Below are positions 1-20,292 of a stretch of DNA of 35,521 nucleotides, piece after piece. The translations under genes and the position numbers were made by a program. Numbering within the stretch: position 1 is the stretch's first letter; each line of letters opens with the position of its first letter. The DNA comes from an uncultured Bacilli bacterium (GTDB lineage: Bacteria; Bacillota_I; Bacilli_A; RF39; UBA660). The stretch spans positions 1-35,521 of the forward strand of contig CANQAS010000007.1 of assembly GCA_947589535.1 (NCBI GenBank), in the 5' to 3' direction. The notes under the pieces are model-generated. The model was given only the letters and a program-made list of their open reading frames with translations, had not been told where the DNA came from and ran no database searches.

Positions 1-129
1 GAATTTTTTACTTTCATAATAAAATCTAATATTCTTTCATTACTTAATTTTCTTCTATCTATTTTTATAGAACATAGTTCATCTACATAATTATAACATG
101 TTTTAGAATATATATATCTTTTTAATAAT

Positions 130-151
130 AAAAAAACAGAATTTCTCCTGT
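130..151 (-). terminator. Intrinsic terminator after the lepB-distal small ORF
   Basis: Minus strand ACAGGA-GAAA-TTCTGT (6-bp stem including one G.U, GNRA-like loop) followed by TTTTTTT. Confidence 0.6.
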
Positions 152-175
152 CTTAATAGATTAAATGTACCTATT

Positions 176-481
176 TTATATTATTAAATAATTATTACTC
201 TTCTTTTTTTCTGCAAAATGTAAACTAGATTCTTTTAATACTTCAATAGCATCATATACATCTTTACCATCTTCTATAATTCTTCTACATTCTCCAGGAT
301 TGGAATCAGTAAAAAAGTCCCAAGCGGTAACTAATTTATCAACTTTTTTTATTTTATTATTAATCATAAACTTTTCATATTTTGATTTATCATCTTTTCC
401 ACTTAATATAATAACTACGTTATATTCATTCGTCATTATTTCAGCATTAGTTATATGATTTTCAACTCCTATTTGAACCAA
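176..481 (-). CDS. Hypothetical protein downstream of lepB; TTG start as given, true start uncertain
   Basis: 101-aa ORF; the same frame stays open upstream to the end of lepB without an ATG. Confidence 0.5.
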   Translation of the reverse strand: MVQIGVENHITNAEIMTNEYNVVIILSGKDDKSKYEKFMINNKIKKVDKLVTAWDFFTDSNPGECRRIIEDGKDVYDAIEVLKESSLHFAEKKKSNNYLII

Positions 482-579
482 TCCATCATTTATAAATAAA
501 TTACCAAAAATTTTTAATAATTCTTTAATATATTCGTTTGATATATTATCAATATAATATACGTCTTTATGAAATTTCT

Positions 580-1113
580 CTATTTTACTATTTTTATCTT
601 ATTTATTGGAAAAATCCTAAGGTTTACTTTTCCTAAAATATCTTTTTTATCAACTAAACCAACCTGCATTCTAGAGTCATTTGAGTGTGGTCTATTATCA
701 CCAACAACAAAATATTTATCTCCGCCTATGTTTTTATAACCAATTTCTTCTAATTTGAAATCAGCGGTATCCGCATGAGTGAAATCTTCTATTTCTAAAA
801 TACCATTAATATATAAATTATTATTCTTATATTCAATGTGTTCACCAGGAAGTCCTATTACTCTTTTTACTATTTTTTCTCCATTCCAATCAACTACTAT
901 AATATCATTTCTTTTAATATCAGTTAATTTCAAACTTAATTTGTTTAACAAAATAATATCATTATCATATAAGGTTGGTTCCATAGACTCACCATTAACA
1001 ATAGCTGGAGTTATTATGAAACTTCTTAATAATATTACAACTATTATAACTATTATATATGGGCAAACATCCTTTAAAATCTTTTTTATTCTTTCCTTAT
1101 TCATATATATCAC
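580..1113 (-). CDS. lepB: Signal peptidase I
   Basis: N-terminal TM, NGESMEPTL (Ser) and KRVIGLPGE (Lys) motifs, GDNRPHSNDSR box; next to rplS. Confidence 0.93.
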   Translation of the reverse strand: MIYMNKERIKKILKDVCPYIIVIIVVILLRSFIITPAIVNGESMEPTLYDNDIILLNKLSLKLTDIKRNDIIVVDWNGEKIVKRVIGLPGEHIEYKNNNLYINGILEIEDFTHADTADFKLEEIGYKNIGGDKYFVVGDNRPHSNDSRMQVGLVDKKDILGKVNLRIFPINKIKIVK

Positions 1114-1118
1114 CTAAT

Positions 1119-1146
1119 AAAAAATAAGGCATAAATAGCCTTATTA
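1119..1146 (-). terminator. Intrinsic terminator/attenuator between rplS and lepB
   Basis: Minus strand AATAAGGC-tatttat-GCCTTATT followed by a T-run; touches the rplS stop. Confidence 0.75.
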
Positions 1147-1482
1147 ATTTCTTTCTTTTAATTTCCATTGGCCAACTATATTTCTAGCGTAATATAACTT
1201 AGCACGTCTTGCTTTACCTTTTCTAGTAACTTCGATTGAATCAAGTTTTGGAGAATGTACTGGGAATATTCTTTCAACACCAACACCACTAGACATTTTA
1301 CGTACTGTAAATGTTTCAGATACTCCATACCCCTTACGTGAAATTACAACACCTTCAAAAGCTTGTACTCTTTCTTTTTTACCTTCGATAATTTTAACAC
1401 CAACTTTAACTGTATCACCAACTCTAAATTCAGGAACTTCTGGATTTAATTGAGTATTTGTGATTTTTTCAATTTTGTTCAT
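1144..1482 (-). CDS. rplS: Ribosomal protein bL19 (start at [11 protein letters not shown] rather than the upstream M)
   Basis: [33 protein letters not shown]...[21 protein letters not shown] is typical L19; SD just upstream of MNKIEK. Confidence 0.95.
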
Positions 1483-1499
1483 GCTCTTCGTCTCCTTCC

Positions 1500-1555
1500 T
1501 AAAATATATATCCAGCAATCATGCAAAATACATGCGGCGGATTGCCTTCTTTTTT
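1500..1555 (-). promoter_or_regulatory. Putative L19 leader RNA hairpin
   Basis: Minus strand GGCAATC-cgccg-CATG-tattttg-CATG-ATTGCTG structured hairpin directly 5' of rplS. Confidence 0.55.
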
Positions 1556-1566
1556 TAACAAAGATA

Positions 1567-1595
1567 ATTTTATCATAATATTAATAATTATGCAA
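1567..1595 (-). promoter_or_regulatory. Sigma-A-type promoter for rplS leader
   Basis: Minus strand TTGCAT - 17 nt - TAAAAT upstream of the L19 leader hairpin. Confidence 0.5.
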
Positions 1596-1625
1596 GCCTT
1601 ATTAAAACTATGTATTTAATATTAA

Positions 1626-2846
1626 TTATAATCTTCTCCTATGTCCTGAGGAATCATCATCATCCTCTTCATTTTTTTCCATTCTACTTAACATCGCGTT
1701 TTGCATTGTTCTCGTTCTTACAAAATCACTTGTTATTTGATTAATATTTTTGATAATATTATCTAAATTTTCTTTTCCTAAATATCTAGAATAATCATTT
1801 ATAACAATTTGTTTTAATAACTCTGATTCCCCAAGAACCCTACCGGTTACTGCATCATCAGCATCATTTAATGCCATACCAAAACGATAAGTTAATATAT
1901 CTATTTTTTTTCTTACGTTTTTCATTGCAATTTTAGTAGCAAAATCTGGTTTAGCAATTAATATTTTAGTTAATTCATTATTCTTAGTCTTACCTTTTAA
2001 TTTATAGCCCGTAATATATTTTGGATTAAGAGTTGTTACAGCTTTAGTATTATCATCTTTTGATAATATATATTTGCCAGTTTTTATAACATCTTTTATC
2101 TCTGTTACCTTTATATTTTTTATATCATCTATGTTTATTTTTCTTTTTACTTTATTAATTCCCTCTTTTTTTAGCGTCATTTTATTCTTTAATAAGTCAG
2201 GCCTTTTTAAAGCGGTAACTTTTACTCTTTCATCATTTCGCCATTTATCTATTTTTTTATGATCTCCTGATAGAAGTACTTCGGGAACTTCCATACCTTT
2301 ATAATTTCTAGGTTTAGTATATGTTGGATAATCTAGCAGATTATCATTAAATGACTCTTTCAAATGTGATTCTTCTTCTATAACACCAGGAATTAATCTT
2401 ACTATCGAATCAGTAATTACCATACTTGGTAATTCACCACCTGTTAAAACGTAATCTCCAATTGATATTTCCTCATCACATATCGTTTTAATTCTTTCAT
2501 CAAAACCTTCATAATGGCCACATATAAATATCAAATGTTCCTCCTTAGATAGCTCATATGCTTTTTTTTGAGTATATTTTTCTCCTTGAGGTGATAATAA
2601 TATCACTTTTGAATTTTCTTTTTTTAGACTTTCTATCGCATCAAAAATAGGTTGACACATAAGTACCATACCATTACCACCACCGTATGGTGTATCATCT
2701 ACTTTTTTATGTTTATTATCTGCAAAATCCCTAAAGTTGCATGTATTTATTTCAACTTTATTATTATCAATCGCCCTTTTTATAATTGATTCACTTTTAA
2801 AACCTTCAAACATATCTGGAAACAATGTTAAAATATCTATTTTCAT
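1626..2846 (-). CDS. trmD: tRNA (guanine-N1)-methyltransferase TrmD with about 185-aa C-terminal extension
   Basis: [41 protein letters not shown] motifs; 406 aa versus about 240 typical. Confidence 0.95.
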
Positions 2847-3328
2847 GATAACAACCCTTTCACGTTTTCAACAATAACTTCTTTTTTTTCCATATTAACT
2901 TCTTTAATAAAAGCTTTAACATATGGTATCATAACATTATTATCTAAAACTAAAACTTCATTTGCAGGAGTGTCAATTACATCTTTAATGATTCCTACAA
3001 AATTGTTATCTATTATAACATTAAATCCTATTAAATCAAAAGATAAATATGTATTTTTATCTAATTTTAGATCTTCTTTATTTATGTATACCATTGATCC
3101 TTTTAAATGTTCAACTAAATTAATATCATGTATTCCTTCAAATACAACCATATCAAAGTTTTTGTGTTTCCTATATGATTCTACAATGTATTCTTTTTTT
3201 TCTCTTCCTACGTAAAACCTCATATTTTTAATAAACACTTTATCTTTATATCTAAAATTAGAAAGTAATCTAACTTCACCTTTTATCCCATGAGTATTAA
3301 CAAGTTTCCCAATATATAAATATTCCAT
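2843..3328 (-). CDS. rimM: 16S rRNA processing protein RimM (start [14 protein letters not shown])
   Basis: [16 protein letters not shown] motif and PRC-barrel C-terminus; ATGA overlap with trmD. Confidence 0.92.
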
Positions 3329-3329
3329 A

Positions 3330-4055
3330 TTATTCTCCTTTTTGTAATTCATACATTATAATTGAAGCTGCAACTGCAACATTAAGACTTTCGCAATTAC
3401 TATTCATAGGAATGTAGATGTTAGTATCTGCATATTCTTTTATTTTACTAGATACACCTTGACCTTCATTTCCCATAACAATGATTATTTTATCTTCTTC
3501 TTTAACCGTGTTAATCATCTTGCCATCATTTACATCCGTTACGCATATTTTATAATTTTCTTCTTTTGCTTCTTTTATAAATTCTATTAAATTTTTAGTA
3601 ATGACGTTAGTTTTAAATAGCATACCTTGTGATGATCTAATTAATTTTTCATTATATTTATTAACCGAATTATCACTTAAAACTACAGTATCAAAATTAA
3701 ATGCATTGGCACTCCTAATTATTGTTCCAATGTTACCAGGATCTTGTAAGTTATCTAACACAATAACTTTTTTTCCAATTTCTTTTTCTACGATAAATTT
3801 ACATATTCCAATAACATTACTACTAGAAGGTAATAAACTTATGTAATTCATTATGTTTTTTGTAACCAAGACATTAGGCACACCATAATTAACTTCTTTT
3901 ACTGATATGGTTTCTAACAAAATACCAGCATTATATGCTTCTTCTATTAAATGAGTACCTTCTACTATAAACTTGTGTTCTTCATTCATGAATTTATTAT
4001 TTCTTAATTTATTTATATATTTTATTTTTTTATTTTCTTTTGATTCAATTACCAT
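3330..4055 (-). CDS. TrmH/SpoU-family rRNA methyltransferase
   Basis: LDNLQDPGNIGTIIRSANAF and VMGNEGQGVS, SLNVAVAASIIMYE SPOUT motifs. Confidence 0.92.
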   Translation of the reverse strand: MVIESKENKKIKYINKLRNNKFMNEEHKFIVEGTHLIEEAYNAGILLETISVKEVNYGVPNVLVTKNIMNYISLLPSSSNVIGICKFIVEKEIGKKVIVLDNLQDPGNIGTIIRSANAFNFDTVVLSDNSVNKYNEKLIRSSQGMLFKTNVITKNLIEFIKEAKEENYKICVTDVNDGKMINTVKEEDKIIIVMGNEGQGVSSKIKEYADTNIYIPMNSNCESLNVAVAASIIMYELQKGE

Positions 4056-4057
4056 AA

Positions 4058-4696
4058 TTACTCCTTTAGCTCTTTTCTTACGTTCTTATATTCAGGACAA
4101 TATTTAAAAACGGTATCCCAAAATTCTTTACTATGATCAAAATGTACAAAATGAGATAATTCATGGACTATAACATAGTTTAAATATTTTGGATCTTTTT
4201 TTATTAGTTCTAGATTAAGAGTAATAGAATTATCTTTTTTATTACATACACCCCATCTTGTTTTCATACTCCTAACTTTTAACTTAGGATAAGGAATTTT
4301 TTCTTCAAATACATAATATGCTTCATCCAAGTATTTCAAAAATTCTTCCAAAGCAATTTTCCTATACCATTTATTAAGCATATTATCATCTTTAATAATC
4401 AAAGTTGTACCATCAAAAGATGCTTTTTTAACGTCTTTATAACAAATATTAATATTCTTTCCAAGTAATTTATTTTCTTCTTTTAATTTAGTTTTATTTT
4501 GCTTTTTTTTAATATCTATCATTCTTTTGATTGATTTAGTATTTTCATATATAATTTTAGTTATCATATGTTTAGTGTAAAGATATGGACAAGTAACTTT
4601 TATTTTAAAATCATCAGATACTCTTATATATAAATTTTTATTATGTTTTTTTTCTATGATAACTTCATATGTTTTATCATCAAGTACTAGTTCCAT
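4058..4696 (-). CDS. YgjP-like/DUF45 M48-type metallopeptidase
   Basis: VIVHELSHFVHFDHSKEFW (HExxH...H) and MKTRWGVCNKKDNSITLNLELI; likely start MELVLDD. Confidence 0.88.
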   Translation of the reverse strand: MELVLDDKTYEVIIEKKHNKNLYIRVSDDFKIKVTCPYLYTKHMITKIIYENTKSIKRMIDIKKKQNKTKLKEENKLLGKNINICYKDVKKASFDGTTLIIKDDNMLNKWYRKIALEEFLKYLDEAYYVFEEKIPYPKLKVRSMKTRWGVCNKKDNSITLNLELIKKDPKYLNYVIVHELSHFVHFDHSKEFWDTVFKYCPEYKNVRKELKE

Positions 4697-4752
4697 ATAA
4701 ATCACCTTAAATATTATATCATTTATTATAAATCTTATAAAGCTTTTGAACA

Positions 4753-4781
4753 AAACAAAAAACAGAAAAATAATTTCTGTT
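4753..4781 (-). terminator. Intrinsic terminator downstream of the unknown three-gene operon and its decayed paralogue
   Basis: Minus strand AACAGAAA-ttatt-TTTCTGTT followed by TTTTGTTTTG. Confidence 0.6.
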
Positions 4782-4844
4782 TTATATATTTTTAGGATAT
4801 TAATTACTTTTAAATAAACATCATTATACATCAACCTTTATTAA

Positions 4845-5166
4845 GAATATTGCTTTTCTTTAAAACCAGGTAAATACATACTAGAATTTTGAAAAATAAA
4901 CCACTATCTTTCTTTATTTGTTCTAATATTAATTCTAAATCTAAATTAACATCGATTTGCTTTACTTAATCTAAAATATTAAGTAAGAAGTTTTATCATA
5001 ATAATTTTTAAGTTTACTAATTAAGTTATAAATAGCTTTATAAAAATTTGTTAATAAGACATTAATAAATCACAAAGTATATTTAAATCTTCTTCACTAT
5101 AAGTTTTTTAATAATTATAAATAAGATTCTGAATATATGTAATTTACCATTTTCAATTTTCTTTTA
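4845..5166 (-). pseudogene. Decayed, frameshifted partial paralogue of the adjacent gene at 5167-6225
   Basis: Frame-broken minus-strand reading gives, in colinear order, KIENGKLHIFRILFIIIKKLI, YSEEDLNILCDLLMSY, NFYKAIYNLISKLKNYYDKTS and DLELILEQIKKDSGLFF/QNSSMYLPGFKEKQYS. These match KLTNGNLLARFIIKKILKNI, SFKELINGLCDIEHYF, NNFKYPLDLICRKLIKINNKYKK and EMVAEQIKTSNDATIMEYINSPMTCLPGEKEVD of the neighbour. Confidence 0.65.
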
Positions 5167-6225
5167 TTATTTTTTTATCGCTATTAAAGAATTTATCATT
5201 TCTTTATACTTATCTTTGTCAGTAAACTTTAAATCTTCTATTACCGCACTAACTATTAAATTAAAAGTATCTTTATCTACTTCTTTTTCTCCAGGAAGGC
5301 AAGTCATTGGACTATTTATATATTCCATAATGGTTGCATCATTAGAAGTTTTTATTTGTTCTGCTACCATTTCAAACCACATTTTCGATTCTAAATCCAT
5401 CTGATTTATTAATATGTTTAAATTTTCTTCTATTTTATCTTTTTCATGTTGTTCTAATCTTTCTTGTCTTGTACCATATTTATATAATGGTTCAACTTCG
5501 TTTGACCTTTGTTTTCCATCATAATCTTTTACTATAATTCTAAAATAAATATTAAGTTCATTAGTTTCCTTAAAAGAAAGTTCCTCATTTTTTCTTAATA
5601 ATGCTGAATATTCTTCTACTAAACCTTTGTATTTATTAGGATCATCATTAATATCTAAACCATCTAATAAAGATACTAATTTTATCATTTTTTTGTACTT
5701 ATTATTTATTTTAATTAGCTTTCTACATATTAAATCAAGTGGATATTTAAAATTATTATAGTAAGACATTATTATAGCTTTTAACGTATTTTCACTCATG
5801 TTAAATTCTTTTTTTATAAATGTATTATTACTATTTTTGGCAATGTTTATTTTCGAAAAATAATGTTCAATATCACATAATCCATTTATAAGTTCTTTAA
5901 ATGATTGATAATCATTAAAATGTTTGCCAGTCATATTAATATTTTTTAATATTTTTTTTATTATAAAACGTGCCAATAAATTTCCGTTAGTAAGCTTAAT
6001 ACAATATAATTTTAAATCTTCTTTGGTATATCTAGAAATTAAAAATCTACCACCATCATACTTTTCAAGTATATCAATTAAATCGTTAAGTTTATTAATA
6101 TCATACACTGTATTGTTTGAAAAAGTTTCATTTATCTTACTAATACCATTATTAATAATATTAATGTCTTTTTCATATACATTTCTTTTAGTTTCAAGCA
6201 AACTAATAACATCATTTATTTCCAT
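5167..6225 (-). CDS. Uncharacterised helical protein (cluster gene 3), start MEINDVISLLE
   Basis: Long ORF; SD AAAGAAAGGCG upstream of MEIND; no recognised domain. Confidence 0.85.
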   Translation of the reverse strand: MEINDVISLLETKRNVYEKDINIINNGISKINETFSNNTVYDINKLNDLIDILEKYDGGRFLISRYTKEDLKLYCIKLTNGNLLARFIIKKILKNINMTGKHFNDYQSFKELINGLCDIEHYFSKINIAKNSNNTFIKKEFNMSENTLKAIIMSYYNNFKYPLDLICRKLIKINNKYKKMIKLVSLLDGLDINDDPNKYKGLVEEYSALLRKNEELSFKETNELNIYFRIIVKDYDGKQRSNEVEPLYKYGTRQERLEQHEKDKIEENLNILINQMDLESKMWFEMVAEQIKTSNDATIMEYINSPMTCLPGEKEVDKDTFNLIVSAVIEDLKFTDKDKYKEMINSLIAIKK

Positions 6226-6241
6226 AATATCGCCTTTCTTT

Positions 6242-6257
6242 AACGTTACGTAACGTT
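6242..6257. repeat. 16-bp perfect palindrome AACGTTACGTAACGTT
   Basis: Sequence equals its own reverse complement; lies in the leader of cluster gene 3. Confidence 0.9.
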
Positions 6258-6259
6258 TG

Positions 6260-6283
6260 AATGTTTTTTTAATAAAAAACATT
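6260..6283. repeat. Inverted repeat AATGTTTTTT-taat-AAAAAACATT
   Basis: 10-bp arms, directly downstream of the cluster gene 2 stop. Confidence 0.75.
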
Positions 6284-8300
6284 ATTTTCTTTTTTTACTT
6301 TGTTCTATTTTGTCAAGTATTTCTTTTGCAACAACCCCATCATAATACATACCTGTTTTTTCTTGAATATAGTCTGAGCAATCGTTCATAAGTTCAATAA
6401 GATCCTTTATGTATTTAACTTCTTTACCTGTATAATAAATAACATCGCCAGCATCATAATAAGATTCTTTATTAGCTTCTTCACATTCTACTTCCAGGAA
6501 GTAGTTTAGTAATAAAAGTATATCATTATAATCTTCTTTATTTTTAATGATTTCATTTATCTTACTATTTAGTTTCTTAGTTGCTACTTCATAACCATCC
6601 TTTTTCAAAGATTTTATAATCCATATTTTAGTTATAGTAGCGCCTTTTTTAGTATTTTTAAGCTTTTGTAATTCTAGTGTAACTTCATCAGGTGTAAAAA
6701 TTACATAAGAAGGTTGAGCTTCAGCTTCTTCTGCTTTATTAAGTTTATTACTTACTTTTATATCATCAATAGTTTCATTGTTAGTTTTATCTTTTATTTC
6801 TTCCTTTGTAATATTCGAAAAGGATGATTGTTTTTGATTAATATCGTCTTCATTTGTTTTAGTAGTTGTAGAAACTTTACTTCTTTTTTTATTCTTTTTA
6901 GGTGATTTTTCTTTTGGGGTATCGTCAGTTATACCTCTTTTTATTCTTCTTATTAAATCATTTTGAGTATAAGCATATGAAATCATATTAGAAATAATTG
7001 TTCTAATGTCGTCTTTAAGCTCTTCAGGAGCATTTAAATTAAACTTTACGAATCTTTCTTCTTTTACAAAATTAATTTTATTTCCATATTTAAGGCCTTT
7101 AATAAACCTTTCAAAGTTCTTTATACTTATATCATAATCTTCAACCATTGTTTTGGTTTTATCTAAAACAAAAACCATACAATTTACTAAATTATTAAGC
7201 ACGTTTTTAACAACGGTAGAACTTAAATCACCGACTTTTGATAATTCAATGTATACACTTAGTATTTCCACTACCGAATCAAAATCCCCTTTATCAGCTA
7301 ATTCGCTAATAAATACCGTTTTGTCAACTGATTTAAGGCTAAGAGTTGGGCTTATTATTTTTATAAAATTAGGATGTTTTGCATTGCCGTCCATAAATAA
7401 AGTCATAAAATCTTTTATAACTTCTTTATTATTTTTATTATCATTAATTGTTAATATATAATTATATAAACTACGTTTTACTAGATTTGAATTATTTATA
7501 TTATTACACATTTTTTTATACATAGATAATAAATTTCTATACTTATAAGATTTTTTCTTTATGGTTTCTAAGGCACTTTCATATTCATGTATCATATTAT
7601 TTAATGATATTTCTTCAGATAATTTTGGTTTGTTATTATCATTTTTTTCTAACTTTTTATTATAATTATAAAACTTCTTGATTACATTATTTTTTTCGCC
7701 TTCTGTTAAATATTTTTCAATAACTTTTGTTTCTTCTTCAGAAAAAATTATACTACAATTATTAATAATAGATTTTTTCATCTTATCAATAACTTCTATA
7801 CATAGACTCATATCGTCATCGAAAATTAATAAATCACTATAGCAACTTGCTATAGATTTTGCTATTTCAATAGCAAGATCAGTCATCTCATTTTTTTTCG
7901 AAGTATATTTACTTAAAATAGCATTTGCAATTATTTTATATAAGCGTCTAATAGAATTATAAATTTCTGTAGCTGTTATTTCTGCTGTATTTGTGAACTT
8001 TTTTTCTAAAAAAGAATCTTTAATAGCTATATTAAAATTTTCTATAAACTTTTCATTTTCTATAGCTATATTTAACACATTCGTAATAGCTGAATTTGGA
8101 GTATCCGATTTCAAAAGCATTTCAAAATCTTCCATGTTTACAAAAACAGAACCTTCCATACTTTTATCAACTTTACAAAATAAACTAAATGGTTCCATTT
8201 TTAATTTATTACTTTTACTTTTAGCAGTTATTTCTTCTAATATTTTGTCTAATGATCTAACAATTGCAGTTTGTTTACTGTTTAATTTAATATTATCCAT
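6282..8300 (-). CDS. Uncharacterised large helical protein with a central charged low-complexity linker (cluster gene 2), start MDNIKLNSKQ
   Basis: Long ORF; SD AAGGGGTG upstream of MDNIK; linker KEKSPKKNKKRSKVSTTTKTNEDD...; no TM or signal peptide evident. Confidence 0.85.
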   Translation of the reverse strand: MDNIKLNSKQTAIVRSLDKILEEITAKSKSNKLKMEPFSLFCKVDKSMEGSVFVNMEDFEMLLKSDTPNSAITNVLNIAIENEKFIENFNIAIKDSFLEKKFTNTAEITATEIYNSIRRLYKIIANAILSKYTSKKNEMTDLAIEIAKSIASCYSDLLIFDDDMSLCIEVIDKMKKSIINNCSIIFSEEETKVIEKYLTEGEKNNVIKKFYNYNKKLEKNDNNKPKLSEEISLNNMIHEYESALETIKKKSYKYRNLLSMYKKMCNNINNSNLVKRSLYNYILTINDNKNNKEVIKDFMTLFMDGNAKHPNFIKIISPTLSLKSVDKTVFISELADKGDFDSVVEILSVYIELSKVGDLSSTVVKNVLNNLVNCMVFVLDKTKTMVEDYDISIKNFERFIKGLKYGNKINFVKEERFVKFNLNAPEELKDDIRTIISNMISYAYTQNDLIRRIKRGITDDTPKEKSPKKNKKRSKVSTTTKTNEDDINQKQSSFSNITKEEIKDKTNNETIDDIKVSNKLNKAEEAEAQPSYVIFTPDEVTLELQKLKNTKKGATITKIWIIKSLKKDGYEVATKKLNSKINEIIKNKEDYNDILLLLNYFLEVECEEANKESYYDAGDVIYYTGKEVKYIKDLIELMNDCSDYIQEKTGMYYDGVVAKEILDKIEQSKKRK

Positions 8301-8359
8301 ACTAAAAACACCCCTTTTGTTTTTATGGTCAGCTATAATATCAAAAAAGAATAATTTTG

Positions 8360-9439
8360 TCAAATTGTTTTTTTCAAAGCATTAATTGATTTTATACTTT
8401 TAACTTTTGTAGCCTTATTAATATCAGTTGAATTTTGTATTTTTATTATTAATTTTTCTAATATTTCTTTATAATGTGTCCCTTGTACATAAGATAAATA
8501 ATTAGCTGTTTTATTTTCAAAATCCTCTATTTTTATCGTGCCATTAGCAAGATTTGTTACTATTTCTAAATATAATTCTAAGCAAACCATATCTTCTTCT
8601 GTTAATTTAACACTAGCTTCTTCAAATACGGTTTCTTCTAATTGATTATTTTTTTCTTCTCTTTGCAACAACAATTCATTAATTTTTTCTTGTTGTAAAC
8701 TTTTTGATTTTCTTATATTCTCATTATACTTGTCAATTATTTCTTTACTTAGTGTTTTTTTAATATTAACGTCTATTGGTATATCTATTTTTAAAATATT
8801 TTCTATTAAGATAAAATCTATTTCTTCTCTATTATTAATTAATTTTAAAATATTTTTAAATAATTTTTTAAGCCTAGAATATTTATCTAATTTTTCATCA
8901 CTTAAAAATTTTGAATTTTTTATATATGAACAATAATGATCTAATATATCAACTGCTTGTTTTTTTGAAATTGTGCTAGAAGAATTATACCAATTACATA
9001 AAGTTGCATACAAATCACCTACATTATTGCATTCATATATTTGTTTACATAGCCAAATATTTTTAACCTCTATACATAAATTTTTATCAATAATTTCTTT
9101 TGCCATATCTTTTAGTTTTTCTAATGTTTTAACACATTTAAGCTTCGCAAGTTTAATATTTTCTCCTGGTATTAATTCATTTATCACCAAACCTTGAACT
9201 TCTTCGCTTGATTTAATCGTAATATAGAAAAAAAACTCAAAATCACGTTCTGTTAAGATAATATTTTGCAAATTATTTTTAGCTCTTTTAAGCTTCATCT
9301 CTAAAAATTCAATATCTTTTTTATCTTTTTTTAAATTAAAATGAGACTTTTTGGATGCATTTAAAAGATCATTAATTAATTTTTTTAAGCTATCTTCTTC
9401 AATGTCGCTACGATTATTATAATATACTTTTATATTCAT
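8360..9439 (-). CDS. Uncharacterised helical protein (cluster gene 1)
   Basis: 359-aa ORF with ATG and SD GAAAGGAG; lies downstream of a promoter; no recognised domain. Confidence 0.87.
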   Translation of the reverse strand: MNIKVYYNNRSDIEEDSLKKLINDLLNASKKSHFNLKKDKKDIEFLEMKLKRAKNNLQNIILTERDFEFFFYITIKSSEEVQGLVINELIPGENIKLAKLKCVKTLEKLKDMAKEIIDKNLCIEVKNIWLCKQIYECNNVGDLYATLCNWYNSSSTISKKQAVDILDHYCSYIKNSKFLSDEKLDKYSRLKKLFKNILKLINNREEIDFILIENILKIDIPIDVNIKKTLSKEIIDKYNENIRKSKSLQQEKINELLLQREEKNNQLEETVFEEASVKLTEEDMVCLELYLEIVTNLANGTIKIEDFENKTANYLSYVQGTHYKEILEKLIIKIQNSTDINKATKVKSIKSINALKKTI

Positions 9440-9466: not shown

Positions 9467-9494
9467 ATTATACTTATAATAATTAGAAAATCAA
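9467..9494 (-). promoter_or_regulatory. Promoter for the unknown three-gene operon
   Basis: Minus strand TTGATT - 16 nt - TATAAT, about 27 bp before the gene 1 ATG. Confidence 0.55.
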
Positions 9495-9524
9495 GTCAGT
9501 TTAGAAAAGACTTAACTGACTTGA
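9491..9524. terminator. polC terminator-like hairpin overlapping the end of the CDS
   Basis: Perfect 11-bp inverted repeat TCAAGTCAGTT / AACTGACTTGA, 12-nt loop; weak T-run on the minus strand (TTTTCTAATT). Confidence 0.6.
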
Positions 9525-12500
9525 CTCCGGAAGTTCTTCAAAAATACCCATTATTTTCATTTTATCGGTAAGTGTTTGAGATACTTTACCTCTTACCTGC
9601 ACATCTTCAATTGATATGTATTTTCCTTTTTCTCTTTCTTCTACGATTTTTTTAGCAACGGTATCACCTAGACCATCTATTGCGTTAAATGGTGCAACAA
9701 TAGTATTATCATCTCTAACTTTCCAAACTGTTGCGTTACTTTCATATAATTTTGGTACTAAGAATTTTATTCCTCTTGCAGTTGCTTCTAGACATACTTT
9801 TAAACTTTCTAAAACTCCTAATTCCTTATTTGAAGCATCAAAACCTTTGTTTTGAATTTCAATTATCTTAGCTTTTATTGCATCATAACCCTTTGACATT
9901 ATTTCAATATCAACGTCTGTTGCTTTTGAAGTAAGCCAAGAAGCATAGAAATATACTGGCATATGAACTTTATACCAAGCAATTCTAAACGCCGATATAA
10001 CGTATGCTGCTGCGTGGGCCTTAGGGAACATGTACTTAATCTTCTCACATGAGTCAATAAACCATTCTGGTATATTAGCTTCTTCCATAGTTTTTTTATG
10101 TTCCTTCCAAGTTTCTGGATCTTTAGAAGCTCTTCCTTTACGAACAAATTCCATTATCTTAAATGCTTTTATTGGTTTTACACCATTATACATAAGATAT
10201 ACCATTATATCATCACGACATCCTATAACTTCTTTAAATGGAACTATATTGTTTTTAATTAGGTCTTGAGCGTTTCCTAACCAAACGTCAGTACCATGCG
10301 ACAACCCAGATATTTTAATTAATTCCGCAAAAGTTTTAGGTTTTGTTTCACTAACCATTCCGATTGTAAATGGTGTACCAAACTCTGGTATTCCAAGGGT
10401 ACCTGTTTTATTAAGTATTTGTTCATTAGTAACACCAAGAGCCTTTGTTGATGTAAATATACTCATGGTATCTTTATCATCTAATGGTACTTTTGTAATA
10501 TCAGTACCGGTTAAATCTTGAATCATACGTAATTGGGTTGGGTCTGAATGTCCTAAAATATCTAGTTTAAGTACACATTCATCTATCGCATGATAATCAA
10601 AGTGTGTTGTTCTCCAAGGACTTGATGCATCTTCTGCTGGAAATTGAAAAGGTGTAAAATCAAATACCTTCATATAATCTGGTATAACAACTATACCACC
10701 TGGGTGCTGACCTGTTGTTCTTTTAACACCTGTACATCCAGCAGCTAATCTTTCAATTTCAGCAGGCCTTTTATTTATTCCTTTTTCTTCTAAATATCCT
10801 TTTACAAATCCATATGCGGTTTTTTCAGCAACCGTACCAATGGTACCTGCTCTAAATACGTTGTCAGGTCCAAATAAAACTTTTGTATATGCATGAGCAG
10901 ATGCTTGGTTTAAATCACTAAAGTTAAGGTCGATGTCAGGAACCTTATCAGCATTGAATCCTAAAAAAGTCGCAAATGGCATATCTTGACCATCTTTATA
11001 CATATAATTACCACATTTTGGACACTTCTTATCAGGAAGATCAAAACCACTAGAATACTGACTACCAAGTGCTTCCCCATTATCAAACTCAAATATACTA
11101 TGTTGACAGTTAGTACATCTGTAATGGGCTGGAAGTGGATTTACTTCTGTTATACCCATCATTGTAGCAACAAACGATGATCCAACAGAACCACGGGATC
11201 CTACTAGGTATCCTTCATCATTAGAATGTTTAACAAGTCTTTGCGAAATTAAATATATTGGATCAAATCCTCCACCGATAATTCCACCAAGTTCCTTTGA
11301 CACTTTCTTATCTAAAGCATCATCATCAAGTTCGCCTTCTTCTTCATCCAAATTATTTTTAAAATACGTTCTAAGTAAGTCTTTAACCGCATCAAATCCT
11401 TTTAATATAACATCATGTAGATTAGCAAATGTCTTGTTTTTTAATTCTTCTTCACTAATATTAGGATTATCTTTTTTTATGTTTTCCTCACATATTTTAT
11501 ATACAACGTTGCCATAAAGTTCCATTGCAATACGTTCTTCTATGTTATATGGTAATGGATCTCCATACCATTCTTTAGCCTTATTATAAACTAAATCGGT
11601 TACAACTCTTGGACAATCTAGATAACTTTTTCCATCATCTGATTTTACTCTTGGTGAAAATGGTATACCATGCGTATCAATAATAACTTCTATTTCTTCT
11701 ACCATGTCAAGTATTTTATTAGTGTTAGTAACAACTATTTCGTAAGCTAAATCTTCACCTAAAAACGCAAAATTTTCTAGCATTTCATTAGTAGTTCTAA
11801 AATGTTGAGAAGGTATTTCTTTAATATCCTTCTTTGCAAGTGGGTGTCTTCCTCCACCAGGTACTTTTTGGTTAATTATTATTTCACGATATATTTTATC
11901 TTCTTTCTTAAAATGATGTACGTCACCTGTTGCAACAATCATCTTTCCAGCTTCTTTTGTTGATTCTACAACTTTTTTAATATGGGCTTTTAACTCATCT
12001 TCATTTTTAAAGTCTCCTAATTGTAATAAATGGTTATACACTTCAGGTGGCTGAACTTCTACGTAATCATAAAAATTAATTATGTTAGTAAGTTCTTGTC
12101 CTTCCTTACTTCTAGCTAAAGTAAATACTTCTGATTCATAACATCCACTACCAATTAATACTCCTTGTCTTAAACGTTCTACCTCACTTCTAAGTATTCT
12201 AGGAGTTTTATATATGTAAACTGTATTAGCCAGTGATATCATTTCAAATATGTTTTTTAAACCTTGTTTATTAACGGCTATAGCGTTAAAATGATACGTT
12301 CTACCAAACTTATGTATTTCATCTTTAGATACTAATCTATCTAAATCACTTATTTTTTCAAAATTTTGAGAATCTAATTTTAGAAGCATTTTATGAAATA
12401 CGTGTGCTGTTCCTTCAGCATCATAATCAGCTCTATGGTGGGCATCTTCTTCCCAAGGAATATTATATCTTTTAACAAGAACAGATAAGCTGTGCCTTGC

Positions 12501-14099
12501 ATAACCTTGATCTAACGTTCTAGATAACTCTAATGTATCAATTACGGTGTTTTTAAATTCGCCAAGATTATATTTTTTCATAGCCATACTAATAAAAGAA
12601 ATATCAAACTTAGCATTGTGCGCTACCATAGGTAGGTCTCCAGCCCACTTTAAAAATCTTTTAGTGACAGCTTCTTCATCATCACAACCAGATACCATTG
12701 CGTCTGTTATTTGTGTTAATTCTGTTATTTTGTCTGGAATGTGTCTTTTTGGATCGATTAATTCATCAAATCTATCAATAATATCACCATTAGATATTTT
12801 AACAGCACCTATTTCAATCATTTGATCGCCACCAGCTGCATTAAAACCAGTTGTTTCCGTGTCAAATACAACGTAAGTGCTATCCATTAAAGAATCATCA
12901 GTTGGTCTTACTACGATATTAACAGTATCATCAACTAAAGTTAACTCAACTCCATATAATCCTTTAAAATGTTGTGATGGATCTTCTATTTTTTTATTAT
13001 GTCCTTTAATAATTCCGTAAGCTACTGGAAAGGCTTGGCAGCCATTATGATCGGTTATCGCAACACCACGATATCCCATGTTAATAGCATTTGTAACAAG
13101 TTCACAGGTATGTTTACCTAAGTCCAATCTTGTTAATCCATCCATCTGACTCATCATCGTATGAGCATGAAGTTCTACCCTTTTTACTTTTGCATCATCA
13201 GTTACAACAACATCTTTTGAAGGTATTTTCATAACGTTCCTAATATTTAAAACTAAATCGTTTGCAAATGTATCTTGCTTAACATACCCATTTATCCTAA
13301 ACCAACCTGATTTCATAGCTTTTGATACTTTTTTAAACGAATCAGCATCTTTAGTAAAATACTTAGCATATATACTATCGGTATTATCACTTATTTTAAA
13401 CGTAAGAATCTTAAAAGAACTTTTACTTGATTCAAACTCTTCAACACCAAACACGTAAGCTTCAACGGTAACATTTCCTTCTTCGGCAATTATATCATTT
13501 ATCCTAGTGATATTACCTTCCTTTATTTCATCACCAACAATTATTGGATTATCTTTTTTAGGAACATCAGATACCTCTTTTTTTATAGCTTCTTCTAATT
13601 CTTTTTTAACCGTAATTGCATTTTCTTCATTTACCAAAATCTCTATTTTAACATCACTATACCCTATTTGATTATAATATTTTATTATGCTGGTGATATT
13701 ATTTTTTAGAATGTTCTCCTCAGCAATGTTGTCTACCTCAATAACTATCTTTTTACCTTCAGATGTAACTTTCTTTTCTTTAAATAACTCTTTCATAGGT
13801 TTCGTTAAAGTACTGTTTTCAATTGCTTTATCATAATAATTTGTTATATTATCATAACTAATATTATTAACTACAAACTCTGCTTTAATTGAGTTCATAT
13901 CAGGAAAACCATCTTTTATATTTTCATTTATAAAGGATAAAACATCATCATTAAGAATATTTTCTATTTGAATTACAAAAACACCGTTTTTTCTAGATGA
14001 GTCCATTTTTAATTTTAAAATTTTACCATTATTAAAATATTTATAATATTCCAAAGGAAGTTTAATTCTTTCTAAAAAAAGTTTTAATTTATCATGCAT
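9501..14099 (-). CDS. polC: DNA polymerase III PolC-type alpha subunit
   Basis: 1532 aa; OB and PHP (ELHAHTMMSQMDG), inserted DnaQ-like exonuclease (VVFDTETTGF), zinc-finger (CPKCGNYM), PDIDLNFS; C-terminal clamp motif QLSLF. Confidence 0.98.
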   Translation of the reverse strand: MHDKLKLFLERIKLPLEYYKYFNNGKILKLKMDSSRKNGVFVIQIENILNDDVLSFINENIKDGFPDMNSIKAEFVVNNISYDNITNYYDKAIENSTLTKPMKELFKEKKVTSEGKKIVIEVDNIAEENILKNNITSIIKYYNQIGYSDVKIEILVNEENAITVKKELEEAIKKEVSDVPKKDNPIIVGDEIKEGNITRINDIIAEEGNVTVEAYVFGVEEFESSKSSFKILTFKISDNTDSIYAKYFTKDADSFKKVSKAMKSGWFRINGYVKQDTFANDLVLNIRNVMKIPSKDVVVTDDAKVKRVELHAHTMMSQMDGLTRLDLGKHTCELVTNAINMGYRGVAITDHNGCQAFPVAYGIIKGHNKKIEDPSQHFKGLYGVELTLVDDTVNIVVRPTDDSLMDSTYVVFDTETTGFNAAGGDQMIEIGAVKISNGDIIDRFDELIDPKRHIPDKITELTQITDAMVSGCDDEEAVTKRFLKWAGDLPMVAHNAKFDISFISMAMKKYNLGEFKNTVIDTLELSRTLDQGYARHSLSVLVKRYNIPWEEDAHHRADYDAEGTAHVFHKMLLKLDSQNFEKISDLDRLVSKDEIHKFGRTYHFNAIAVNKQGLKNIFEMISLANTVYIYKTPRILRSEVERLRQGVLIGSGCYESEVFTLARSKEGQELTNIINFYDYVEVQPPEVYNHLLQLGDFKNEDELKAHIKKVVESTKEAGKMIVATGDVHHFKKEDKIYREIIINQKVPGGGRHPLAKKDIKEIPSQHFRTTNEMLENFAFLGEDLAYEIVVTNTNKILDMVEEIEVIIDTHGIPFSPRVKSDDGKSYLDCPRVVTDLVYNKAKEWYGDPLPYNIEERIAMELYGNVVYKICEENIKKDNPNISEEELKNKTFANLHDVILKGFDAVKDLLRTYFKNNLDEEEGELDDDALDKKVSKELGGIIGGGFDPIYLISQRLVKHSNDEGYLVGSRGSVGSSFVATMMGITEVNPLPAHYRCTNCQHSIFEFDNGEALGSQYSSGFDLPDKKCPKCGNYMYKDGQDMPFATFLGFNADKVPDIDLNFSDLNQASAHAYTKVLFGPDNVFRAGTIGTVAEKTAYGFVKGYLEEKGINKRPAEIERLAAGCTGVKRTTGQHPGGIVVIPDYMKVFDFTPFQFPAEDASSPWRTTHFDYHAIDECVLKLDILGHSDPTQLRMIQDLTGTDITKVPLDDKDTMSIFTSTKALGVTNEQILNKTGTLGIPEFGTPFTIGMVSETKPKTFAELIKISGLSHGTDVWLGNAQDLIKNNIVPFKEVIGCRDDIMVYLMYNGVKPIKAFKIMEFVRKGRASKDPETWKEHKKTMEEANIPEWFIDSCEKIKYMFPKAHAAAYVISAFRIAWYKVHMPVYFYASWLTSKATDVDIEIMSKGYDAIKAKIIEIQNKGFDASNKELGVLESLKVCLEATARGIKFLVPKLYESNATVWKVRDDNTIVAPFNAIDGLGDTVAKKIVEEREKGKYISIEDVQVRGKVSQTLTDKMKIMGIFEELPESSQLSLF

Positions 14100-14289: not shown

Positions 14290-15132
14290 TTATTCTATAA
14301 TTAATTCTGATAAGCCTTTTAATTCATATCCTTTCCTAGTAATAGAATTTATAATAATATTAAATTCATTAATATCAAATGTATTAAGATTATATGAAAT
14401 TATACTACCATTTTCTAAACTACTTTTTAACTTAGAGATACTAGGATTATTTATAGTAGGAATTAACGAATACATTCTTTTTTTATCGCATACTTTCTTA
14501 TAATCAGTATTTTTATTTTCATTAAGACAAAATAAAGAATCTTTTAAAGTGATACTCTCAATTAAATTATTTGTAATATTTATAGTATCTTTTTTATATT
14601 TACCATCATAACCTAAATTATAAATTTCAGAATCTAAGTTATTTATGGCAAAACCAATATCTATATTTTCTTCTAAAAATTTACCATCAACAAAAAAATT
14701 AACTACTGTATTATTAGAAGCAATTAAAGATAATAAACCATCTAAATTATCATTACTGTCTAATTTAAATATCAAATACACGTATTTATTTTTATTATTA
14801 CCTTTCTTAATATAATAATCAAATGAATTTGTTATACTAGTGTTTGGTAATGTCTTGTCATATTCAATTTTATCTTTATCAAACACATTTTCATCTTTCA
14901 TATTTTTATAAGATCGATTCTCGTTTACTTCCAGTCCAGAAATTCCAAGTATTATTTCATCATCATTTATAATCGGTTCTATTGGATTTACCCTGTTTTT
15001 TTCTTTATACTTAATAATTTCTTTCATTACTGGATTACTTTTTTTAGCTTCACTAAATACTTTATCAGTGTAAATGAAACTAAGGACTAATAAAAATAAT
15101 ATAGATAATAACTTACCTAGTGTTTTAAACAT
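14290..15132 (-). CDS. NodB/polysaccharide-deacetylase-like extracytoplasmic protein, apparently lacking catalytic residues
   Basis: Signal/TM N-terminus; GLEVNENRSYKNMK, VVNFFVDGKFLEEN (cf. ATFFVVGKxLEKN); DDGP and HxxxH positions degenerate. Confidence 0.65.
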   Translation of the reverse strand: MFKTLGKLLSILFLLVLSFIYTDKVFSEAKKSNPVMKEIIKYKEKNRVNPIEPIINDDEIILGISGLEVNENRSYKNMKDENVFDKDKIEYDKTLPNTSITNSFDYYIKKGNNKNKYVYLIFKLDSNDNLDGLLSLIASNNTVVNFFVDGKFLEENIDIGFAINNLDSEIYNLGYDGKYKKDTINITNNLIESITLKDSLFCLNENKNTDYKKVCDKKRMYSLIPTINNPSISKLKSSLENGSIISYNLNTFDINEFNIIINSITRKGYELKGLSELIIE

Positions 15133-15188
15133 TTTATCACCTAATAAATGATATGTTTAACCATTTAATAACATACCATTATTTTATG

Positions 15189-15215
15189 CAATAAAAGAAA
15201 CCAATAAGGTTTCTA
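15189..15215. terminator. Terminator overlapping the stop of the upstream gene
   Basis: Stem AGAAACC-aataa-GGTTTCT; the TAG stop is part of the stem. Confidence 0.6.
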
Positions 15216-16133
15216 ATTATTTTTATATGCCGCCTCTGGCTTTAAAAGATAAGTATTAGAAATATATGTATTATCTTCACTTATGCTCCAATTTTCCAAC
15301 TTATAATGTTCAATGTTATCTGCGTATATTTTAAAAGTAACACTTGAAATTTTACTTAAATTAGGAATGGTTATTTTTCCTTCTTCATCTATTTTTATAT
15401 CTTTTAGTTTTATTATCTTGTTTAAATCAGTATAACTAACTTTTACATTTATTTTTATAGGAGTATTGATTATAAAAGTTCTAGGATCATCCTTATTAGT
15501 ATTAATTATAATCTTCTCATTTTTGTTCTTAGCATTTTTTAATTCATCATTTGATATAGGGCTATAATATCCCTTTACGGTAAATATTTTATAAGCATAC
15601 TTAGATGAGGAATCTTCAGAATCCATAAATTTCCAAGTTGCTGGAGCAAATGATTTTTGAATTTTAGAACTATTTATAATCTGTATTTTTATTTTCCATG
15701 TAACGTTTTTATTGCATACGGATTTTATATTTACCTTAAACGATTTAGTACCTTTCTTAATGGTTTTGCTTTTTTCTTCTATCCATTCATTATCTATCAA
15801 TTTATATATTGTATATTTATAACTTCCTTGATAACTTTCTACCAAAGAAGAAGGCTTTATTTCCAATACGTAATCACTTTTATCATAATACTCGTTAACA
15901 TAAAATCCATTCTTGTTTTCTATTGCTCCAAATATTTTTTCAAAGGTAGCAGAATAAAGAAGTTTCAAAGGAGATTCACCTTTTATTACACCAACGAAAG
16001 AAATGGAAAGTATTATACAAATAGCAAAGCAAACGCATATTGAAATCCTAGCTTTATTTAATATACTATTATCAGCAAGTTTTGGTCTTCCTACCTTATT
16101 CTTACCCTCATCACTTAATAACCATTCTTTCAT
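15213..16133 (-). CDS. Single-pass membrane protein with N-terminal GRPKLAD motif
   Basis: MKEWLLSDEGKNKVGRPKLADNSILNKARISICVCFAICIILSISFVGVI then a beta-rich extracytoplasmic region. Confidence 0.8.
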   Translation of the reverse strand: MKEWLLSDEGKNKVGRPKLADNSILNKARISICVCFAICIILSISFVGVIKGESPLKLLYSATFEKIFGAIENKNGFYVNEYYDKSDYVLEIKPSSLVESYQGSYKYTIYKLIDNEWIEEKSKTIKKGTKSFKVNIKSVCNKNVTWKIKIQIINSSKIQKSFAPATWKFMDSEDSSSKYAYKIFTVKGYYSPISNDELKNAKNKNEKIIINTNKDDPRTFIINTPIKINVKVSYTDLNKIIKLKDIKIDEEGKITIPNLSKISSVTFKIYADNIEHYKLENWSISEDNTYISNTYLLKPEAAYKNN

Positions 16134-18915: not shown

Positions 18916-20292
18916 TTATCTTCTAAGTTTATTAATTAAATTATTATATTTAAGTAACGATATTAATGATACAAAGCCTATAAATATAAGTATAAATATA
19001 ATTGGCATTTGTATAATACCATATGTAAATGAAACAGTATCAACTAAAGCAGAATAAACAAGGTCATATACTAACGTTGTATTAAATATTGTTAATATTA
19101 AACTATCATTAAGCGTATCAGTATAAGATGAATGTTTTCCAGTATTAATATTATATATCAAAGTACTAATAACACCTGTTATAATGGCTATGTTAAAACT
19201 TGTCTTATTAATTAAGGAAAAATTATTTAAAATAATTATAAGACTAAGAATACTAATAATTAATAAAACAAGCATTAATATACAATGATGTGGCTTTATT
19301 TGCTTAATTACTAATATTTCATTTTGATTACTCTTCTTATTTTCTTTTTTATTATTAATAAGTTCATTTAACGTTGAAGTACCCTCTTTTTCTTTATCCA
19401 ACGTTTTTAATACTTCATCAGATTTTAAATTTGTATTTTTACTAACTAAATATGTGAAAGCAGCTATATTATTAGAATTTAAATTACTTATTATATTTTC
19501 AGCTATTTTTTCTTCATTATCAGCTATTATATCAGTAATATTATTGTTAAAATCTTTTGGAATTTTTAAAATATTATCTTTTTTCTTAAGTTTAAAAGAT
19601 TCTATAGACATCTTTTTATTTTCAATTTCTTTTTTTAACTCTTTTATTTTAGTATATGATTTTATAACATTTTTCTTAAATATTATTTTTTCAGATAATA
19701 ATTTTTCTTTTTTTAAGAAATTCATACTGATAAAAGAATATATAACTATAAGACCATAAATACCAAAAGGAATTGTTATTAATAAAAGATAATTTTTAAA
19801 TATTAAATTATATATTAAACAAAATAGAAGAAATACTCCTTTAATAAAATCGTAGGTGTTTGTTATTCTTTTACCACTTAAGTTATACTTTTTAGATGAT
19901 GCTATACTACTATTTATACTCGTAATTATATTGTTATATATCTTTATAAGAAGTTCATTTGAAACTATATCTTTTTTTAGCTTCTTTAAGTTTTCAACTT
20001 CATAGCAATCATCTAAATAACGTTCGAAATTATTTTTTAGTTTATCTTTTTCAGATTTATTTGATAAAGCATATGCTTTATCAAATATCTCTTTTAGTTT
20101 CTTTATATCACTATCAGATAAATATTTCTTATAATAATTAGTTTTAGATTCGATTATCCCAATATATCCAAGTTTATTTTTTGGATAGCTCTTGACCATT
20201 TCAGTATATATATCAAGTGCCGAGAGATAATCTTCCTCCTCCAATTTTAATTTAGCTTCTTCATTTAAAAACTTTAAAGTTCTTTTTTTCAT
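18916..20292 (-). CDS. TPR-like N-terminus plus multi-TM membrane protein, uncharacterised
   Basis: N-terminal AKLKLEEEDYLSALDIYTEMVKSYPKNKLGYIGI resembles a TPR; several hydrophobic segments. Confidence 0.8.
   Translation of the reverse strand: MKKRTLKFLNEEAKLKLEEEDYLSALDIYTEMVKSYPKNKLGYIGIIESKTNYYKKYLSDSDIKKLKEIFDKAYALSNKSEKDKLKNNFERYLDDCYEVENLKKLKKDIVSNELLIKIYNNIITSINSSIASSKKYNLSGKRITNTYDFIKGVFLLFCLIYNLIFKNYLLLITIPFGIYGLIVIYSFISMNFLKKEKLLSEKIIFKKNVIKSYTKIKELKKEIENKKMSIESFKLKKKDNILKIPKDFNNNITDIIADNEEKIAENIISNLNSNNIAAFTYLVSKNTNLKSDEVLKTLDKEKEGTSTLNELINNKKENKKSNQNEILVIKQIKPHHCILMLVLLIISILSLIIILNNFSLINKTSFNIAIITGVISTLIYNINTGKHSSYTDTLNDSLILTIFNTTLVYDLVYSALVDTVSFTYGIIQMPIIFILIFIGFVSLISLLKYNNLINKLRR

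Follow-up and report, generated by a model that had tools for sequence, protein, structure and literature searches.

What are three adjacent genes that resemble no described family doing between polC and a ygjP-like metallopeptidase gene, and why should their relatives vary so strongly when both neighbours are conserved? The locus lies in a window (the whole stretch of DNA analyzed, 35,521 nt) from an uncultured bacterium of RF39, a group whose members are mostly walled and include sporulating and non-sporulating species (PMC10868615). A first-pass annotation, made from the sequence, had described three same-direction open reading frames after polC, the second with a charged linker and none with transmembrane segments, and all of this was borne out. 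We refer to the interval between the two flanking genes as the slot, to the family of gene B as F1, and to the family of gene C, which includes gene A only doubtfully, as F2. The features are:

4058-4699, minus strand: ygjP-like metallopeptidase gene, right flank of the slot (Pfam YgjP-like, E 2e-40)
4835-5166, minus strand: non-coding stretch between gene C and ygjP, 332 bp (22-210 bp in congener slots)
5167-6225, minus strand: gene C, 352 aa from its ATG, F2 family member
6282-8300, minus strand: gene B, 672 aa from its ATG, enlarged F1 member, consisting of an N-terminal part without family, a charged linker and an F1-type C-terminus
8334-8366, minus strand: predicted gene B promoter element, its -35 TTGACA overlapping the stop codon of A, with a TGN-extended -10
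8360-9439, minus strand: gene A, 359 aa, an ORFan with a doubtful F2 relative through a G012 gene, called from its open reading frame and codon-position GC
9494-9467, minus strand: gene A promoter-like site, weaker than that of B, from a consensus scan and not above shuffles
9493-9522, minus strand: predicted polC terminator hairpin (folding energy -11.5 kcal/mol, z -3.5), which overlaps the -35-like box of A (9494-9489)
9501-14099, minus strand: polC, left flank of the slot, present in 39 of the 39 genomes searched

Gene A begins 61 nt downstream of polC, and A, B and C follow head to tail on the minus strand with an RBS-like sequence before each start. In all three, GC content falls from codon position 1 to 2 to 3, in the same order as in the neighboring housekeeping genes, and the A-B-C stretch is AT-rich (22.7% GC vs 26.0% for the window). 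The linker of B, at about residues 475-560, reads as charged and low-complexity. For the slot proteins, the maximum hydropathy over 19 residues was 0.94-1.34, making a transmembrane segment unlikely, and inspection of their sequences revealed no signal peptide or sortase motif; they are probably cytosolic. No Rfam family was detected in the region. Three more predicted proteins without a Pfam match (280, 306 and 458 aa) are encoded in the window at 14290-16133 and 18916-20292, the first two between polC and ezrA.

The description of the proteins as unrecognized was upheld by the database searches. Pfam, NCBIfam, PHROGs and PADLOC returned only weak sub-cutoff matches scattered across unrelated families, PADLOC, queried with A, B, C and three relatives, gave no defence family at E up to 0.1, and a PDB sequence search with the F1 and F2 profiles yielded nothing credible. 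Membership of B in F1 is carried by its C-terminus: residues 561-666 scored 54.7 against the F1b profile in the HH comparison, against a control maximum of 29.8, and the N-terminal part scored 19.4, which is not above controls. An F1 profile search recovered B at E 4e-64 with a profile that itself contains B. Five of 17 congeners carry relatives of C (23-33% identity), and the match to the F2 protein of G006 was full-length (30% identity, E 6e-47). The second slot gene of G012 is clearly F2-like though divergent (HH score 45.8, control maximum 25.0 among 217 unrelated proteins), and A matches it collinearly (BLASTP E 0.002). On its own, A scored 22.3 against the F2 profile, within the control range; its relation to F2 through the G012 gene is doubtful.

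Two further homologies were considered but not supported. A tandem F1 duplication within B did not hold, as its N-terminal half lies in the noise and the first BLASTP match there was partly translated promoter DNA. By eye, the stretch at 4835-5166 contains frame-broken F2-like motifs suggestive of a decayed F2 copy, but tblastn with F1 and F2 scored no higher there than in shuffled sequence.

Across the genus, F1 was found in 14 of 18 congeners and F2 in 6-7, and A in none of 59 other genomes. Among 386 family genomes sampled (150 genera), no F1 relative was found in any other genus, and the four short F2 matches outside the genus (E 1e-4 to 9e-4) were judged to be chance; the polC neighborhoods of other genera likewise held no F1 or F2 relatives with convincing scores. 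The phyletic check proposed at first pass thus places neither F1 nor F2 convincingly outside the genus.

AlphaFold2 models built on shallow alignments were mainly helical both for C (pLDDT 83.8, pTM 0.58) and for the F1 protein of G005, a relative of B (pLDDT 87.2, pTM 0.73), so that for these two the models agree with the earlier statement that all three proteins are mainly helical. Each model opens with a long helix, followed by several short ones, a small hairpin, another helix of about 50 residues and a helical C-terminus. This similar helix order suggests a common fold; a common ancestry of F1 and F2 is possible at most, the direct profile comparison being near noise (27.6 vs F1/F2 control maxima of 24-25). 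Foldseek against the PDB, a search that had been proposed from the outset, found no match at E<=0.001 for C or the G005 F1 protein, nor did Foldseek against BFVD at the same threshold for the latter.

An own promoter had been claimed for the three genes together with a common downstream terminator. A consensus promoter scan was uninformative by itself (94 sites vs 95 in shuffled DNA), and the site before A does not rise above this background. The site before B is of a different kind: it belongs to a 33-nt element, AATTTGACAA N9 TTTTTG N TA NN ATA with a GGGG-rich leader, which lies directly 5' of F1 genes in congeners and also 5' of three further orphan genes in this genome (on contigs C9, C13 and C34), and for which a reversed-pattern control gave 0 hits. 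The promoter claim is supported for B, with a weaker promoter-like site before A. In its full form the element is combined with a terminator hairpin (up to -14.9 kcal/mol, z -6.4) whose loop contains the -35 box, so that the terminator of the upstream gene and the promoter of the next one overlap; before B this hairpin is lost (z +0.69). The element immediately follows polC in several congeners, which suggests that A was inserted later, between polC and the F1 promoter. Transcription of A, B and C as a single operon is possible, with B probably also served by its own strong promoter. For the common terminator, a minus-strand scan from C to ygjP revealed no terminator-like site.

Comparison with the congeners, all of which are MAGs, showed that the three genes occupy a polymorphic, genus-restricted slot between polC and ygjP. 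In most congeners F1, or F1 followed by F2, lies immediately 5' of ygjP, and in many cases right behind polC. The slot is empty in G001 and G003, where 22-63 bp separate polC from ygjP. G004, G014, G015 and G017 carry F1 without F2, the F1 gene of G002 is broken, and a transposase gene adjoins F2 in G005. In G007, F2 has a different set of neighbors, and F1 is present only in part, on the polC contig; beside F2 (L081) an mTERF-repeat protein (Pfam mTERF, E 2e-27) is encoded beside a metallophosphoesterase gene and the F2 gene. The linkage to polC noted at first pass is seen in many congeners, but in G011 and G014 slot genes lie directly before ygjP with polC on another contig. As to the proposed check for co-conservation, no fixed trio exists: A is nearly private to this genome, F1 and F2 differ in their occurrence, and alleles are swapped.

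The swapping is most evident in two pairs of close relatives, in which whole alleles have been replaced with sharp borders between near-identical flanks. G005 and G006 share 98% amino acid identity in polC and 81% in ygjP, and their DNA is 90.6% identical as far as polC extends and 80.4% identical downstream of F2, whereas their slot proteins are only 31% (F1) and 22% (F2) identical. For the G005 alleles the closest counterparts are in G009, a more distant relative, at 40% each for F1 and F2. G002 and G009 are likewise close (polC 96%, ygjP 95% identity); their DNA is 91% identical as far as the promoter and 96% identical once the last slot gene has ended, with almost no similarity in between. 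The borders of replacement fall at gene ends and promoters. Such replacement sets the polC slot apart, for G005 and G006 share 79% identity in a different orphan gene, that of the pyruvate:ferredoxin oxidoreductase slot. That gene (220-251 aa) lies between pyruvate:ferredoxin oxidoreductase and a trmA/rlmD-like gene in four congeners (L216, L218, L214 and L197).

F1 also recombines internally: in the G005 protein, residues 1-245 resemble G009 (45%) and residues 148-338 resemble G006 (40.5%). Among close relatives F1 is under purifying selection. In the trio G012, G015 and G017, which groups together in both the polC and the F1 trees, F1 dN/dS was 0.16-0.26 vs 0.08-0.11 for polC and ygjP, at dS values of about 1-1.6 that are partly saturated; the F1 values indicate that the proteins are maintained. 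The extreme divergence within the slot appears to come mostly from the exchange of old alleles and not from continuous fast change.

Conflict and defence systems typically feature cytosolic proteins whose alleles are exchangeable and strongly divergent. For this reason the reading that we prefer, at a probability of a little under four in ten, is a lineage-specific, allele-swapping cytosolic module that would most likely serve as an anti-phage or other conflict system. The allele replacements in the two pairs, the F1 mosaic, the empty slots, the broken F1, the purifying selection and the promoter all point in this direction. No effector or catalytic motif was found in the slot proteins, and no link of the locus to known defence genes, which counts against it. 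On this preferred reading, the slot would hold one or two ORFan helical proteins expressed from a strong promoter just after the upstream gene, and presence/absence, allele swapping and decay would reflect an intracellular conflict function under diversifying or frequency-dependent selection. The variable N-terminal part of F1 might recognize a changing target, and its C-terminal part, together with F2 where present, might transmit the effect; in this genome the slot would have been enlarged to three genes through the gain of A and the enlargement of B. A strict two-part mechanism is doubtful, given the four congeners with F1 and no F2 and the G007 F2 with only a partial F1. The bolder proposal that F1 and F2 constitute a new kind of intracellular anti-phage or conflict system, with an unseen helical fold, cassette exchange by recombination in polC and ygjP, and specificity swaps through F1 halves, we consider unlikely as a whole.

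The main rival, which we regard as possible, is that these are ordinary lineage-specific orphan genes in a tolerated insertion slot by ygjP, under weak constraint, with occasional exchange through homologous recombination. ORFan families of this sort are common across uncultivated taxa (PMC10849945). Within the genus, many orphan genes lie between housekeeping genes behind the same type of promoter, and the dN/dS of F1 among close relatives exceeds the polC and ygjP values by a factor of only about 1.5-3. As orphan genes in other slots are common in the genus, a special explanation may be needless. Weak constraint, however, predicts neither that very different alleles are kept in pairs with polC 96-98% identical nor that a strong conserved promoter is combined with purifying selection, and the other orphan slot diverges in an ordinary way between G005 and G006.

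That the genes are cargo of a phage or other mobile element landing repeatedly in the slot is improbable. The transposase gene beside F2 in G005 and the presence/absence pattern would fit such cargo, but tblastn against 50,697 phage records gave no relatives for A or B, a single-protein scan found none of B or C in IMG/VR viral contigs, and there was no PHROG match of note. The slot contains no phage structural or integration genes, the neighbors in the window are polC, ygjP, rlmB, rimM and trmD, and replacement borders at gene ends and promoters are as expected of recombination in the flanks.

Exposed proteins typically show allelic polymorphism and a mosaic structure, and the slot displays both. 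Surface, secreted or host-interaction proteins undergoing antigenic-type variation are nevertheless a poor fit, since the sequences read as having no transmembrane segment, signal peptide or sortase motif, and export would have to follow an unrecognized route. Least probable are accessory factors of PolC or YgjP, co-located for a role in replication or proteolysis, as their stable position by ygjP and often polC is offset by their absence from G001 and G003, where both neighbors are present, by the variability of the slot next to conserved neighbors and by the location of F2 elsewhere in G007.

Similarities to several known systems bear on the preferred reading of a conflict module. Defence hotspots and islands are conserved chromosomal sites that may be empty or filled and whose content is replaced wholesale between close relatives. 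The polC-ygjP slot resembles them in its conserved flanks, its empty and filled sites and its wholesale replacement, but it contains no known defence gene, comprises 1-3 genes only and mostly lacks mobility genes. Moreover, the same two families return to it as divergent alleles, whereas defence hotspots take up unrelated systems. In HsdS-type variable specificity subunits with two domains, the protein halves can be exchanged independently, and the G005 F1 mosaic is reminiscent of this by analogy only, as F1 has no HsdS domain and no methylase or nuclease partner. The Klebsiella capsule locus is described as highly exchangeable between genetic backgrounds (PMC13043062), and to that extent the slot is like capsule or serotype loci; unlike these, it consists of two or three genes, none for biosynthesis or the surface, with products that look cytosolic. 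The FESNov families, novel families of uncultivated taxa without homologues in reference libraries, were centered on conserved context and sequence (PMC10849945). F1 and F2 are similarly restricted to an uncultivated lineage and without reference-library homologues, but here the locus is conserved while the alleles are replaced.

If the conflict reading is true, a gut bacterium with a small genome devotes scarce coding space to a swappable two-family module without known relatives, and a candidate immune or conflict system would be added together with folds that have no PDB match. It would also offer a search route that does without domain hits, namely ORFan slots with a replaced interior between near-identical flanks. 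Even with a mundane function, the locus provides a clear-cut example of allelic cassettes being exchanged in uncultured Bacilli.

Beyond this locus, the strong promoter, often within a terminator hairpin, recurs genus-wide before mostly orphan genes (L187, L188, L189 and congener loci L200-L223), which sit between housekeeping genes, after polC, pyruvate:ferredoxin oxidoreductase, pyrH and others. A second orphan block, encoding proteins of 594, 97, 598, 624 and 198 aa, lies downstream of ftsH on contig C9 (positions 1-9000, L195). The same promoter element precedes its 594-aa gene, and the C-terminal part of the 624-aa protein gave a weak sub-cutoff match to ParE-like toxins.
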